Position numbers and translations under genes: made by a program | Notes under the pieces: model-generated | Told to the model about the DNA's origin: nothing | Database searches by the model: none | The model's input: only the letters and a program-made list of their open reading frames with translations | In this document: positions 37,755-43,660 of the stretch, piece after piece | How positions within the stretch are numbered: the first letter of the stretch is position 1 | Layout of the letters: every line of letters starts with the position of its first letter | DNA from: Gluconobacter kanchanaburiensis NBRC 103587 | Lineage (GTDB): Bacteria > Pseudomonadota > Alphaproteobacteria > Acetobacterales > Acetobacteraceae | DNA length: 64,000 nt | Assembly: GCF_007988905.1 (NCBI RefSeq) | Contig: NZ_BJVA01000008.1 | Coordinates: forward strand, 62,001 to 126,000 | Direction: 5' to 3'

Positions 37755-38156
37755 TCAGCCATCAGGGTGAATCCGGAAGAGCACGTCGTGATAGCCCACG
37801 ACGCCGCCATCCCCGACCAGTGCTGGGCCGAGTGTGCCGTCCGCTGTGGCCGTGACGGGCAGGCGGAGGGGGCCTGCCTCGACAAAACCTACTATCTCGC
37901 CGGAGCGAACCGGGTGGGTTTCGTCCAGGCCGTTTGAGCGGAACACGCCCATCTCGGGGCTGGGAACGGGCGTATCTTCCGCTTTTGCGGGGTAGGAAAT
38001 AGGGGGCGTCTGTTCCGGATTGCTGGTCGGTGCGGGGGTCAATGTCAAGGCAAGCGCACCCGCCCCATTTTTCAGAGAGACATGACGGACGTCGTGACGT
38101 CTCATCCGGTCAACGAGTTCGGGCAGGTCGTTCAGAAGGTCTTCAAGAAAAGTCAT
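37755..38156 (-). CDS. Degenerate biotin carboxyl carrier-like protein lacking the biotinyl lysine
   Basis: Protein of 133 residues at the end of the pxp/acc operon, overlapping the biotin carboxylase stop by four bases. Its organisation copies a biotin carrier: a short N-terminal helix (EDLLNDLPELVDRMRRHDVRHVSLKNG), a Pro-rich linker, then a biotinyl/lipoyl-like barrel starting PSPEMGVFRSNG and ending VGYHDVLFRIHPDG. In genuine carriers the hairpin reads EAMKM; here it reads VEAGPLRLPV, with Pro96 in the lysine position, so it cannot carry biotin. It may be a structural or regulatory partner of the true carrier encoded at 39516-39968. The frame is intact, so it is not an obvious pseudogene. 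Confidence 0.75.
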   Translation of the reverse strand: MTFLEDLLNDLPELVDRMRRHDVRHVSLKNGAGALALTLTPAPTSNPEQTPPISYPAKAEDTPVPSPEMGVFRSNGLDETHPVRSGEIVGFVEAGPLRLPVTATADGTLGPALVGDGGVVGYHDVLFRIHPDG

Positions 38157-39523
38157 GGTGCGGACTTTCGCATGAGGGCTTCGAGATAATGCACGCTGAC
38201 ACCGCCTTCGCGGACGCCGGGTTCGTTCATCAGGCGCAGATGTAGCGGTGTGGTGGTGGCGATGCCGGTGATCTGCATTTCCGAAAGGGCAGCATGCATG
38301 CGGTTGAGGGCATCCGTACGGTCCGTGCCGTGGACGATCAGCTTGGCGATGAGGGAGTCGTAATTCGGCGGCACGACATAGCCGTCATAGAGATGCGTAT
38401 CGATACGGACGCCGGGGCCGCCGGGCGCACGCCAGCTTTGGACTTTTCCGGGGGCCGGGCGGAAGCTCTCGGGGTCTTCGGCGTTGATGCGGCACTCGAT
38501 GGCGTGGCCTTGCGTGCGGATGTCGGCCTGGGTGAAGGAGAGGGGTTCTCCCATCGCGATCAAGAGCTGTTCGCGCACAATGTCGATGCCGGTCGTCATT
38601 TCCGTAACGGGGTGTTCGACCTGAAGCCGTGTGTTCATCTCGATGAAGGAAAATGCACCGTCTTCATACAGGAACTCGAATGTGCCTGCGCCGGTATAGC
38701 CCATCAGGGTGCAGGCGTTTGCACAGCGTTCGCCCAGTTCGGCGATGGCCAGCGGGTCGATGCCGGTGGCTGGGGCTTCTTCGACCAGTTTCTGGTGACG
38801 GCGCTGGATGGAGCAGTCCCGCGCGCCGAGCCAGACGGCATTGCCCTGCCGGTCGGCGAGAACCTGAATTTCGATATGGCGGGGATGCTGGAGGAAGCGT
38901 TCGGCATAGACCGACGGATTGCCGAAGGCGCGTCCTGCTTCTTCACGGGCCGTTTCGATAGCGTCGCGGAGGTCTGCTGCGGTCATCACCACGCGCATGC
39001 CGCGCCCGCCACCGCCGCCCGCCGCCTTGACGATCAGCGGGTAGCCAATGGCGTCGCAGATCGTCTGGGCTTCGGACAGGTCGGTCGGCAGGGCGTCTTC
39101 CGTACCGGGCAGGCATGGGACGCCCGAGCGGCGCATCTGCTGTTTGGCACTGATTTTGTCGCCCATTAGCCGCATGATAGCGGCAGTGGGGCCTGCCAGC
39201 GTACGACCTGACTGTTCCACCGCTTCGGCAAAATCAGCGTTTTCGGACAGGAAGCCGTAGCCGGGATGGATGATGTCGGCATTTGTCAGTTCGGCGGCGC
39301 GCAGGATGCGGGCAGCGTCCAGATAGCTGCCGGATGCCGCTGCCGGGCCGATGCAGATCGTTTCGTCCACCAGGCGCAGATGTGCGAGGCTGGCATCGGC
39401 TTCGGAATGGATGCCGATGCTGTGCAGGCCGAGCAGGCGGCAGGCGCGCGTAATGCGCAAGGCGATTTCACCGCGATTGGCGATCAGGACACGACGGGGG
39501 ACGGACACCGCGGGCTCACGCAT
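38153..39523 (-). CDS. accC: Biotin carboxylase (AccC-like)
   Basis: ATP-grasp enzyme of 456 residues that carboxylates carrier-bound biotin with bicarbonate and ATP. N-terminal VLIANRGEIALRITRACRLLG, the HPGYGFLSENADFA segment, the glycine loop VKAAGGGGGRGMRV, CSIQRRHQKLVEEAPA, and the metal/bicarbonate site FIEMNTRLQVEHPVTE are all present, so it should be active. ATG at 39523 follows GGAG by seven bases and overlaps the carrier gene by eight. No accA/accD is nearby; instead pxpB/pxpC are immediately upstream in the same operon, which have the transferase-like domains found in urea carboxylase. A housekeeping acetyl-CoA carboxylase subunit is a less likely role here. Confidence 0.9.
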   Translation of the reverse strand: MREPAVSVPRRVLIANRGEIALRITRACRLLGLHSIGIHSEADASLAHLRLVDETICIGPAAASGSYLDAARILRAAELTNADIIHPGYGFLSENADFAEAVEQSGRTLAGPTAAIMRLMGDKISAKQQMRRSGVPCLPGTEDALPTDLSEAQTICDAIGYPLIVKAAGGGGGRGMRVVMTAADLRDAIETAREEAGRAFGNPSVYAERFLQHPRHIEIQVLADRQGNAVWLGARDCSIQRRHQKLVEEAPATGIDPLAIAELGERCANACTLMGYTGAGTFEFLYEDGAFSFIEMNTRLQVEHPVTEMTTGIDIVREQLLIAMGEPLSFTQADIRTQGHAIECRINAEDPESFRPAPGKVQSWRAPGGPGVRIDTHLYDGYVVPPNYDSLIAKLIVHGTDRTDALNRMHAALSEMQITGIATTTPLHLRLMNEPGVREGGVSVHYLEALMRKSAP

Positions 39524-41784: not shown

Positions 41785-42422
41785 GAGGCCCTCACAAAAC
41801 GGACGGTGTCGCCCAGGCGCAGCAGGCCGGGCTCGGGACGGAAGGCGTCGAACAGGCACAGATCCGTCCGGCCGAGGATATGCCAGCCCGATGGCGAGGT
41901 GCAGGGCATCATGCCTGCGTGGCCGCCGCCGATGACCACAGCCCCTTCCTCTACCCGCAGACGCGGGGAGTCGCGGCGGGGGATGGCCAGACGCGGGTCC
42001 AGTCCGGTCAGGTACACGAAACCCGCCATGGCGCCGATGGCGGCGACGCTGTAGCGACTGGCCATGTGGGCGTCGATGGTTTCCTCTTCCGTCAGGTTGG
42101 CGAAGCGGGCGACGAGCGCCAGATCTTCACCGAATTCACCGCCATAGACGACCGGCACCACGATTTCGCGGGACGGCACCTCTTCGGCAGAGGCCTGTGT
42201 CCAGACGGTCCGGAGCAGCTCTTCCATGACGGAAGGGTCAGTCTGTACGGCGTCGAACGTGACGAGAAGGTTATTGACGCCGGGGATTGTCTGCAGGACG
42301 TCCGGCCGGGGGTTGAGCGCGCGGCTGGTGGCCCAGATGCGGCGCTGTGTCGTGTCGCTGAACGGGCCGTCGGCGGCGTCCAGCAGGAGGCCGCCCGCGC
42401 CTGCCATGTGGATACGGGTCAT
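41781..42422 (-). CDS. pxpB: 5-oxoprolinase subunit PxpB (KipI-like)
   Basis: Protein of 213 residues of the KipI/AHS1 family. Family parts are AGAGGLLLDAADG at the N-terminus, IPGVNNLLVTFD, REIVVPVVYGGEFGEDLALVARFANLTEEE, GFVYLTGLDPRLAIPRRDSPRLRVEEGAVVIGG and the C-terminal SPSGWHILGRTDLCLFD. It forms a complex with PxpC. The start at 42422 overlaps the MFS stop (ATGA); longer readings reach into the MFS gene. Coupling of MFS, pxpB and pxpC by four-base overlaps points to one operon for uptake and ring opening. Confidence 0.92.
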   Translation of the reverse strand: MTRIHMAGAGGLLLDAADGPFSDTTQRRIWATSRALNPRPDVLQTIPGVNNLLVTFDAVQTDPSVMEELLRTVWTQASAEEVPSREIVVPVVYGGEFGEDLALVARFANLTEEETIDAHMASRYSVAAIGAMAGFVYLTGLDPRLAIPRRDSPRLRVEEGAVVIGGGHAGMMPCTSPSGWHILGRTDLCLFDAFRPEPGLLRLGDTVRFVRAS

Positions 42423-43660
42423 GCGGTTTGATCCGGTTGGGAACGGCCATGGAATGGCCGACGGGGAAGGAGGGCAGCGGCTAGCGCGCCGCACAGGATG
42501 ATGACGCCCGTGATGTAGAAAACGCCGTGGAAATTGCCGGTGGCCTGAAGCAGGTACCCCGTCATGACCGGGGCCAGAATGCCGAGACCGTTGGAGAAGG
42601 TCAGGGTCAGGCCGGTCGCGGAACCGAGGACTTCATCTTCCACAAGCAGGTCCGCCAGAAGGGCCATGTTGGCTCCCGTGCCGCCTGCCATGAAAGCCAT
42701 GGAGACGGCGAGGAGCGGAATGATGGTCGTGGCCGTTTCGCAGAGCGGTAGAAACCCCATGGAAGAGGCTAGAACGAGATACAGGCACACGACCCTGCGC
42801 CGTCCTCCCAGAGAAAGGTTAGATCCGCGAACGAGCGTTTCGCCAACCTTTCCTGCCGTGATCGAGAGAATGGCCGCGCCGACATAGCAGTAGGCTGTGT
42901 ACGCTCCAGACTGGGCGGTGCCGAGATGCAGGGTCTGGCGCATGATGATTGGCAGCCAGGACATCAGCAGGAAGTTGGCGTAATTGGCGCAGCACTGCGC
43001 GATTACGATGCCCCAGAAAGCCGAGGAGCGGAACAGGGTCGGCACCGAAATCAGGGAAAAGGATGAGGCCTGTGTGCCGCGTGCCGGGCGCGGATGGGTC
43101 AGGAGCCAGACCACGGACCAGACTAGGCCCAGTGCGCCGAGCAGCGAAAACGCTGGGCGCCAGCCATAATGGGCAATCAGCCAGCCGCCCGATGCGGCAC
43201 CGCAGGCCAGCCCGATGGGGATGCCACCGATAAAGGCAGTCATCATCAGGCCGCGTTCGTGTAGGGGAGCCCACGCACGGACGACTTTGTTGCCGAGTGC
43301 GAAGGTGGGGGCTTCTCCGATGCCTAGCAGGATCCGCGTGGCGATGAAGGCTGGGACGGTGGCGGTCAGGCTGCCCAGGATCATGGCGAGCGACCACAGG
43401 GCTACGGCGGCCGCGCCGATGATCCTTACGCCGAAGCGGTCCAGAAGGATCGCGCTGGGCAGGTTGAGGATGAAATAGGACCAGAGGAAGCTGGAGAGAA
43501 CCCAGCCGGTTTCCCCTGGTGTGAGGGCGAATTCATGGGCGATCTGGGGCATGCCTACGGACAGGGCGGCCCGGTCTCCGTAGCAGATCACGCACATGGC
43601 GATGGTGAGGGCGTATATGACGAACCGGAAAGGCCGGCGATCTTCTGGAACTGTCTGCAA
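42419..43660 (-). CDS. MFS transporter of the 5-oxoprolinase operon
   Basis: Inner-membrane carrier of 413 residues. FVIYALTIAMCVICYGDRAALSVGMPQIAHEF is the first segment of the ACS-type MFS branch, with YFILNLPSAILLDRFGVRI, ILLGIGEAPTFALGNKVVRAW and GFLL-like later segments; about 12 segments overall. The start is unusual: the best initiation site is a TTG at 43660 with GAGG eight bases upstream, as no ATG/GTG lies between the TonB receptor stop and the first membrane segment; a longer frame running into the receptor gene is non-coding there. It is 50 bases after the receptor gene and overlaps pxpB. Likely imports 5-oxoproline or a related lactam acid. Confidence 0.85.
   Translation of the reverse strand: MQTVPEDRRPFRFVIYALTIAMCVICYGDRAALSVGMPQIAHEFALTPGETGWVLSSFLWSYFILNLPSAILLDRFGVRIIGAAAVALWSLAMILGSLTATVPAFIATRILLGIGEAPTFALGNKVVRAWAPLHERGLMMTAFIGGIPIGLACGAASGGWLIAHYGWRPAFSLLGALGLVWSVVWLLTHPRPARGTQASSFSLISVPTLFRSSAFWGIVIAQCCANYANFLLMSWLPIIMRQTLHLGTAQSGAYTAYCYVGAAILSITAGKVGETLVRGSNLSLGGRRRVVCLYLVLASSMGFLPLCETATTIIPLLAVSMAFMAGGTGANMALLADLLVEDEVLGSATGLTLTFSNGLGILAPVMTGYLLQATGNFHGVFYITGVIILCGALAAALLPRRPFHGRSQPDQTA

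Follow-up and report, generated by a model that had tools for sequence, protein, structure and literature searches.

The 64,000-nucleotide stretch of Gluconobacter kanchanaburiensis NBRC 103587 DNA analyzed here (contig NZ_BJVA01000008.1; hereafter the window) contains, at positions 37755-43660 of the minus strand, an operon in which genes for all three PxpABC subunits are coupled to genes for a biotin carboxylase (BC) and a biotin carboxyl carrier protein (BCCP). PxpABC is a widespread prokaryotic 5-oxoprolinase, reportedly described by Niehaus in 2017 as ATP-dependent, and its ATP step is without a worked-out mechanism in the text that was available. The locus raises the question of what such an enzyme would do with a BC and its carrier. 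The answer favored here, at a probability of roughly 0.55, is that the operon's products form a multi-subunit enzyme that opens lactams in a biotin-dependent manner: separate subunits would N-carboxylate the lactam, perhaps 5-oxoproline, and PxpA would then open its ring. If carboxybiotin does activate the lactam, this would be a new mechanism for a known enzyme.

Gene content of the operon

Seven genes run in the coupled order MFS-pxpB-pxpC-pxpA-accB-accC-Lys-less accB paralog:

42419-43660, minus strand: major facilitator superfamily (MFS) transporter, first gene of the operon (Pfam MFS_1; a TTG start was assumed and is uncertain)
41781-42422, minus strand: PxpB (KipI/AHS1), the CT_C_D half of a urea-carboxylase-type carboxyltransferase (CT) (TIGR00370; Pfam CT_C_D, 213 bits; ATG at 42422, the open frame extending to 42494)
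40813-41784, minus strand: PxpC (KipA/AHS2), the CT_A_B half (Pfam CT_A_B, 286.6 bits; the ATG at 41784 overlaps the PxpB stop)
39994-40779, minus strand: PxpA, a LamB/YcsF hydrolase (NF003814 and PF03746, both above cut-off)
39516-39968, minus strand: AccB-type BCCP (PF00364 above cut-off; biotin Lys112 in an EVMK motif)
38153-39523, minus strand: AccC-type BC (TIGR00514 and three BC Pfam domains; ATG at 39523, a longer frame starting from 39574)
37755-38156, minus strand: Lys-less AccB paralog of 133 amino acids (pseudo-BCCP, hereafter the pseudo-carrier), closing the operon (identified with hhalign against the AccB alignment)

ATGA overlaps were seen at three junctions (MFS/PxpB, PxpB/PxpC and AccC/pseudo-carrier), the end of accB and the start of accC share 8 nt, and gaps of 33 and 25 nt separate PxpC from PxpA and PxpA from AccB, respectively. 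The first-pass annotation of this DNA had placed the first six genes correctly; the seventh had been overlooked.

The three Pxp proteins were all assigned to their families. PxpB scored 175.7 bits with TIGR00370 (cut-off 145.55) and PxpA 366.8 bits with NF003814 (cut-off 226), and PxpC passed TIGR00724 (267.9 bits, cut-off 230.2) but not the PxpC equivalog model NF045499 (290.3 bits, cut-off 500). The best PDB relative of PxpC was E. coli YbgK (5dud), and PxpC also matched urea carboxylase chains directly (3va7, 5i8i). PxpB resembled urea carboxylase weakly (18.8 bits to TIGR02712), and its iterated profile gave 123 bits on the genome's own urea carboxylase. The link to carboxyl transfer is already present in the Pfam names of the two domains, CT_A_B for PxpC and CT_C_D for PxpB, and in public plasmid records that label PxpC a 'biotin-dependent carboxyltransferase family protein'. 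These family and domain matches bear out the first-pass statement that each component of a urea-carboxylase-like enzyme has its own gene here. The operon contains no one-chain urea carboxylase: the best score to TIGR02712, from AccC, was 453.4 against a cut-off of 1303.85.

An intact biotin carboxylase and its carrier

AccC scored 634.8 bits with TIGR00514 (cut-off 626.5). An alignment of 16 housekeeping AccC proteins from other loci has 154 invariant columns; the window AccC keeps 142 of these, including 47 of the 49 occupied by K, R, E, H, D or N. AccB contains a Biotin_lipoyl domain above the Pfam cut-off, and its M111 and K112 (EVMK) were invariant in an 11-row alignment; the intact carboxylase and carrier lysine described in the first-pass annotation were thus confirmed. 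In comparisons of the window copy with other Gluconobacter, the ratio of nonsynonymous to synonymous substitution rates (dN/dS) for AccB was 0.13-0.24 in 10 of 12 cases, the remaining two comprising one value of 0.69 (dN 0.006, dS 0.009) and one comparison without a value; the range for PxpC was 0.11-0.19. Profiles for AccA and AccD found no match in the window, as the earlier annotation had also reported, or in loci L014-L106, and the window does not hold the AccA/AccD with AccB/AccC set of an acetyl-CoA carboxylase. It does hold the set of a biotin-dependent carboxylase in general, namely a BC with conserved residues, a BCCP with its biotin lysine and a dedicated CT, this CT being assigned by homology and genome bookkeeping alone.

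That bookkeeping covered the whole 2.92-Mb assembly. Three BCs were found with PF02785: one on contig C17, one in the window, and one within a 1211-amino-acid frame on contig C2, a urea carboxylase that combines BC, the two CT halves and a carrier in one chain. PF00364 gave six matches, one beside each of the three BCs and three at C10 and C3, the latter probably lipoyl domains. Two frames matching PF01039, on contigs C1 and C7, were read by eye as probable accA and accD. Since every BC has an adjoining carrier, and accA/accD and urea carboxylase lie elsewhere, the CT left for the window accBC is PxpBC. The possibility, raised in the first-pass annotation, that the window pair is the cell's only accBC was rejected, as a second accB-accC pair lies on C17.

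Recurrence of biotin carboxylase genes at pxp loci

The first-pass annotation had proposed a survey of how often pxp and accBC genes occur together without accAD. In 249 genomes drawn across the phylum, 83 had a CT_A_B match. After frames of urea-carboxylase size (1000 amino acids or more), the window itself and a truncated match in genome G004 had been set aside, 78 loci from 72 other genomes were fetched. A BC was present in 19 of these 78 non-urea-carboxylase PxpC loci, against 0.81 expected by chance, an expectation calculated from the BC counts among the matches listed, rounded genome sizes and an assumed 13.5 kb per locus; a chance neighborhood was thereby rejected. (Genomes G004, G102 and G108 were left out of the genome-wide BC count, while linkage itself was counted on the fetched loci.) A carrier accompanied the BC in 18 of the 19 loci, the other (L039) being cut by a contig end, and all 18 carriers keep the Met-Lys pair. 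No match to AccA or AccD was found in any of the 78 loci.

The linkage extends over at least three lineages, and three layouts were seen: a full-length AccB with AccC, a carrier of about 80-110 amino acids with AccC (the mini-carrier layout), and a one-chain BC-BCCP beside PxpB-PxpC. In this last, fused layout, all 11 loci encode BC-BCCP as a single chain, and all but L057 (10 of 11) do so for PxpB-PxpC. The fused loci (L049, L056, L057, L064, L065, L067, L068, L069, L073, L079 and L086) appear to encode a two-piece urea-carboxylase-like enzyme with PxpA. In the BC tree, the pxp-linked BCs formed three clades (12 rows, 100/98; 7 rows, 100/100; 11 rows, 100/100) with L061 apart; the three layouts fell in separate clades and at least three changes were forced. 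In the PxpC tree the BC-linkage label needed five changes, all forced by starred branches. The window PxpC and E. coli PxpC shared a starred clade of 20 rows (99/95); the E. coli row came from a 4.8-Mb record that carries no annotation and is listed as a plasmid. Near-identical Acetobacteraceae rows had been dropped beforehand, seven for the BC tree and nine for the PxpC tree. BC was most likely recruited to pxp loci repeatedly, and such repetition speaks for a working link between the two.

The same data bear on a simpler account, in which the accBC pair is a spare half of acetyl-CoA carboxylase that feeds AccA/AccD elsewhere and came to lie beside pxp by an accident of operon building. AccC does pass the acetyl-CoA carboxylase model, and AccA/AccD frames exist in the genome. 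However, the genome has another accBC pair, with whose AccC (on C17) the window AccC did not group in the BC tree, and the co-location with pxp recurs across lineages and layouts with no AccA/AccD match there. This account is considered very improbable.

A conserved carrier paralog lacking the biotin lysine

The 133-amino-acid product of the last gene matched no Pfam family and had one weak NCBIfam match. Aligned to the AccB alignment with hhalign, it gave a probability of 98.6 and an E-value of 1.3e-15 over 124 columns, with Pro96 at the position of the biotin Lys112 of AccB. It is thus a full-length BCCP homolog without the biotin lysine, as are the BADC proteins of plants. It is under purifying selection, with dN/dS against the window copy of 0.21-0.38 in 12 of 12 Gluconobacter comparisons. 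This range, the overlap with accC and the existence of kin in distant families led to rejection of a decaying accB copy at 37755-38156.

A profile built from nine Lys-less proteins was searched in 398 genomes. Ordinary carriers match this profile too, and the state of the lysine was read in the best 30 matches. Eight of these 30 were without the biotin motif, and all eight lay at pxp genes; as a count for the search the figure is a lower bound because the lysine was read for the best 30 only, and the Lys-less carrier of L061 ranked lower. Four of the eight genomes (G000, G055, G107 and G222) had contributed to the profile, which leaves four independent cases (G265, G253, G377 and G356), four of four at pxp genes. 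A ninth Lys-less carrier is that of L061 (3397-3885 of that locus, minus strand), at a pxp-accBC locus. Its sequence differs from the others, its branch is very long and lies at the margin of the group, and it perhaps represents an independent loss.

Lys-less carriers were also found at pxp genes on plasmids of Mesorhizobium sp. AR02, Burkholderia cenocepacia, Agrobacterium vitis and Rahnella sikkimica, of which the B. cenocepacia plasmid (NZ_CP091015.1) repeats the window order MFS-pxpB-pxpC-pxpA-accB-accC-pseudo-carrier. Another is present on an unannotated record of Microvirga ossetica, where the reading covered the carrier itself. In a carrier tree of 43 hand-picked rows, 16 of 16 Lys-less rows fell on one side of a branch (96/94). 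No accC was seen in the stretch covered for G222, G377, G356 (which ends at a contig end) or Rahnella. A pseudo-carrier kept at loci with no visible accBC would be consistent with a role as adaptor to the housekeeping BC.

Proposed mechanism

Every chemical step given here, like the physical complex and the substrate, is a proposal. AccC would carboxylate the biotin on AccB, using ATP and bicarbonate. The carboxybiotin would then swing to a PxpB-PxpC carboxyltransferase, where the carboxyl group would be moved to the ring nitrogen of the lactam (5-oxoproline or a close relative). Activated in this way like an imide, the N-carboxylated lactam could be opened by PxpA, and the resulting carbamate would lose CO2 to give glutamate or the matching amino acid. 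The pseudo-carrier, without the usual biotin site, would most likely act in assembly or as an adaptor by docking a BC onto PxpBC, comparable to the help that BADC proteins give in assembling plant acetyl-CoA carboxylase; the docked BC may be the operon's AccC or, where no accBC is linked, the housekeeping BC. The TonB-dependent receptor upstream and the MFS carrier probably import the substrate.

If this proposal is correct, annotations such as 'acetyl-CoA carboxylase biotin carboxylase subunit' are misleading for genes linked to pxp, and the non-biotinylated carrier, hitherto discussed for plant acetyl-CoA carboxylase, gains bacterial counterparts in a system that ought to purify readily.

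The carboxyltransferase lysine and an ATP-only alternative

Several observations weigh against the proposed enzyme. In the portion of the yeast urea amidolyase (KlUA) study available, Lys1605, the general-base lysine of the CT, is needed for full CT activity (PMC5770610). This residue maps to Lys985 of the genome's own urea carboxylase and to an arginine in the window PxpB. Among 38 BC-linked PxpB rows, 16 of them from Acetobacteraceae, 31 have arginine at this position; so do 59 of the 60 rows without a linked BC, E. coli included, so that linked and unlinked PxpB are alike at the one residue compared. A BC was lacking from the fetched stretch in 59 of the 78 surveyed pxp loci. AccB scored 99.7 bits with TIGR00531, below the acetyl-CoA carboxylase BCCP cut-off of 115.2. 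A long branch, flagged as a warning, joins the fused-type clade in the BC tree, and the pseudo-carrier branches are long in the carrier tree. The AlphaFold models of PxpC and the pseudo-carrier were poor, with predicted local distance difference test (pLDDT) scores of 63.8 and 55.7, and served solely for reading PDB titles; a Foldseek search with the pseudo-carrier model returned nothing at an E-value under 0.001. The Corynebacterium glutamicum report, in the part available, describes PxpABC as ATP-dependent and mentions biotin only as a strain auxotrophy and in a reference (PMC13274462). Lastly, the TonB receptor and HyuAB genes at the locus, described below, may indicate a substrate other than free 5-oxoproline.

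The column after that of the missing lysine is again arginine in the window and in E. coli (lysine in one linked and seven unlinked rows), and a one-column alignment error would therefore not restore a lysine here. Lysine at the Lys1605 position is confined to the mini-carrier layout and the unlinked locus L037, whose PxpC proteins adjoin urea carboxylase in the PxpC tree; a urea-carboxylase-type CT lysine was accordingly rejected as a marker of linked PxpB. Having arginine for the catalytic lysine, the window PxpB is not part of a plain split urea carboxylase. The urea-carboxylase-like reading of the first-pass annotation is partly supported, by the parts, the repeated recruitment and a structural precedent (PDB entry 9yx5, below); the arginine speaks against a simple copy of that enzyme.

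The shared arginine could mean either that neither linked nor unlinked PxpB uses biotin or that both do. On the former view PxpABC would work with ATP only, and AccB, AccC and the pseudo-carrier would form a regulatory or sensing attachment that passes no carboxyl group to the lactam. The many loci without a linked BC and the retention of a biotin-site-less carrier where no accC was seen suit this view, as does the hydrolysis of ATP by co-purified PxpBC given in the available part of one report (PMC8453981). It is opposed by the conserved residues kept in linked AccB and BC and by the recruitment of BC at least three times, once beside a PxpB with the urea carboxylase lysine, and is judged improbable. 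On the latter view PxpABC in general, including that of E. coli and B. subtilis, would be biotin-dependent, borrowing the housekeeping BC-BCCP unless a dedicated accBC is in the operon, with the pseudo-carrier recruiting BC to PxpBC as a bacterial adaptor of the BADC kind. This broader claim is tentative and rather doubtful. If true, bacterial 5-oxoprolinase would act by N-carboxylation, and the ATP requirement of the enzyme would come from BC.

Comparison with known systems

One-chain urea carboxylase (TIGR02712), represented by the C2 frame and the Kluyveromyces lactis enzyme (3va7, 5i8i), contains the same BC, BCCP and CT_A_B/CT_C_D domain kinds as the window operon. In the window, by contrast, these are separate chains, PxpA is in the operon, arginine replaces the CT lysine and an extra Lys-less carrier is present. 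The PxpABC 5-oxoprolinases (E. coli YbgJKL, B. subtilis KipI/KipA/YcsF, C. glutamicum pxpTABC) share the same three subunits, to which the window operon adds accB, accC and the pseudo-carrier. In 2011 the two CT halves were noted as separate adjacent genes, without functional data in the part of that paper available (PMC3199775).

The structural precedent is PDB entry 9yx5, released 2025-11-26 and titled 'Structure of the long chain acyl-CoA carboxylase complex from Mycobacterium smegmatis with MSMEG_0435-MSMEG_0436 bound'. Its chains include allophanate hydrolase subunits 1 and 2 (W and V, an AHS1/AHS2 pair) and AccA3, a BC-BCCP protein. As judged from the entry title and chain names, relatives of PxpC and PxpB thus share one entry with a BC-BCCP protein; unlike the BC and carrier of the window, AccA3 belongs to an acyl-CoA carboxylase. 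A literature search found no paper for this entry.

Plant BADC proteins of plastid acetyl-CoA carboxylase are described, in the available part of one article, as BCCP homologs without the biotinylation motif that act as assembly glue or inhibitor, and are called unique to the plant enzyme (PMC11926652). The pseudo-carrier, in contrast, is bacterial and encoded in pxp operons, and is likened to BADC by the missing biotin motif. A full-text literature search, which left most subscription papers and all bioRxiv preprints outside its reach, found no description of a biotin-dependent Pxp enzyme or 5-oxoprolinase, or of a Lys-less carrier at pxp genes.

The mini-carrier pxp-accBC loci (L035, L036, L039, L042, L045, L110 and L111) have a urea-carboxylase-like PxpB with the catalytic lysine and are perhaps a separate enzyme with another substrate. 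No match to the pseudo-carrier was found in the surveyed loci of this layout. The P. aeruginosa genes PA0492, PA0495 and PA0496 are presumably relatives of PxpA, AHS1 and AHS2, and the mini-carrier loci (L039 in part) were taken as being of this PA0492-PA0496 type. The P. aeruginosa PA0493-PA0496 operon, in which PA0494 is a BC and PA0493 is an AccB relative, is called of unknown precise function in the available part of one study (PMC6249292).

Genomic neighborhood and the substrate

Four neighboring genes were annotated around the operon:

43711-46224, minus strand: TonB-dependent receptor, a possible uptake partner, lying upstream at 50 nt from the assumed start of the MFS gene (Pfam TonB_dep_Rec_b-barrel and Plug)
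37181-37744, plus strand: winged-helix regulator in the interval from pxp to hyu, resembling MarR by eye (PF13463)
35015-37105, minus strand: relative of the HyuA-type hydantoinase/oxoprolinase/caprolactamase alpha subunit, not assigned to the complex (PF05378/PF01968; NF050156, 498 bits, below the cut-off of 1000)
33447-35015, minus strand: HyuB-type partner (PF02538, 476 bits)

The neighborhood was compared in 15 related loci, in which PxpC identity was 80-97% for 12 and 70, 64 and 56% for the others. All seven operon genes were present in 15 of 15, as was the winged-helix regulator, in the same place. Conservation extends to HyuA-HyuB (33447-37105), downstream in 14 of 15, and to the TonB receptor, found ahead of the MFS gene in 14 of 15 (as two overlapping frames in L024); the remaining relative, L021, begins too late on its contig to show a receptor. 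With HyuA/HyuB, kin of caprolactamase and hydantoinase, adjoining the pxp operon, two different cyclic-amide systems stand side by side.

The conserved receptor may mean that the substrate is no small free molecule. The same split biotin-dependent machinery may act on another cyclic or linear amide (a hydantoin, a substituted urea or a larger lactam), imported through the TonB receptor and perhaps shared with HyuAB. The conservation of the receptor and of HyuAB, each in 14 of 15 relatives, agrees with this, as do the occurrence of HyuAB near pxp-accBC also in L045 and in Shinella (L110) and the score of the window PxpC far below the equivalog cut-off. It is countered by the starred clade that the window PxpC shares with E. 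coli PxpC, and by PxpA and PxpB passing 5-oxoprolinase subunit models. Another substrate is thought unlikely, and a lactam such as 5-oxoproline or a close relative is preferred.

The one related locus without HyuAB, L027 of Gluconobacter thailandicus, has a second PxpA there instead, on the opposite strand. A gene annotated nac, for a nitrogen assimilation regulator, was found at two of the four annotated plasmid loci with a Lys-less carrier. At these loci, L174 (Rahnella sikkimica) and L176 (Agrobacterium vitis), genes for a pyridoxal phosphate-dependent aminotransferase, a short-chain dehydrogenase/reductase and an amino-acid ATP-binding cassette transporter also lie beside pxp and the pseudo-carrier, and these surroundings suggest a nitrogen-scavenging setting. 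The neighborhoods of L046 and L169 appear similar by eye.

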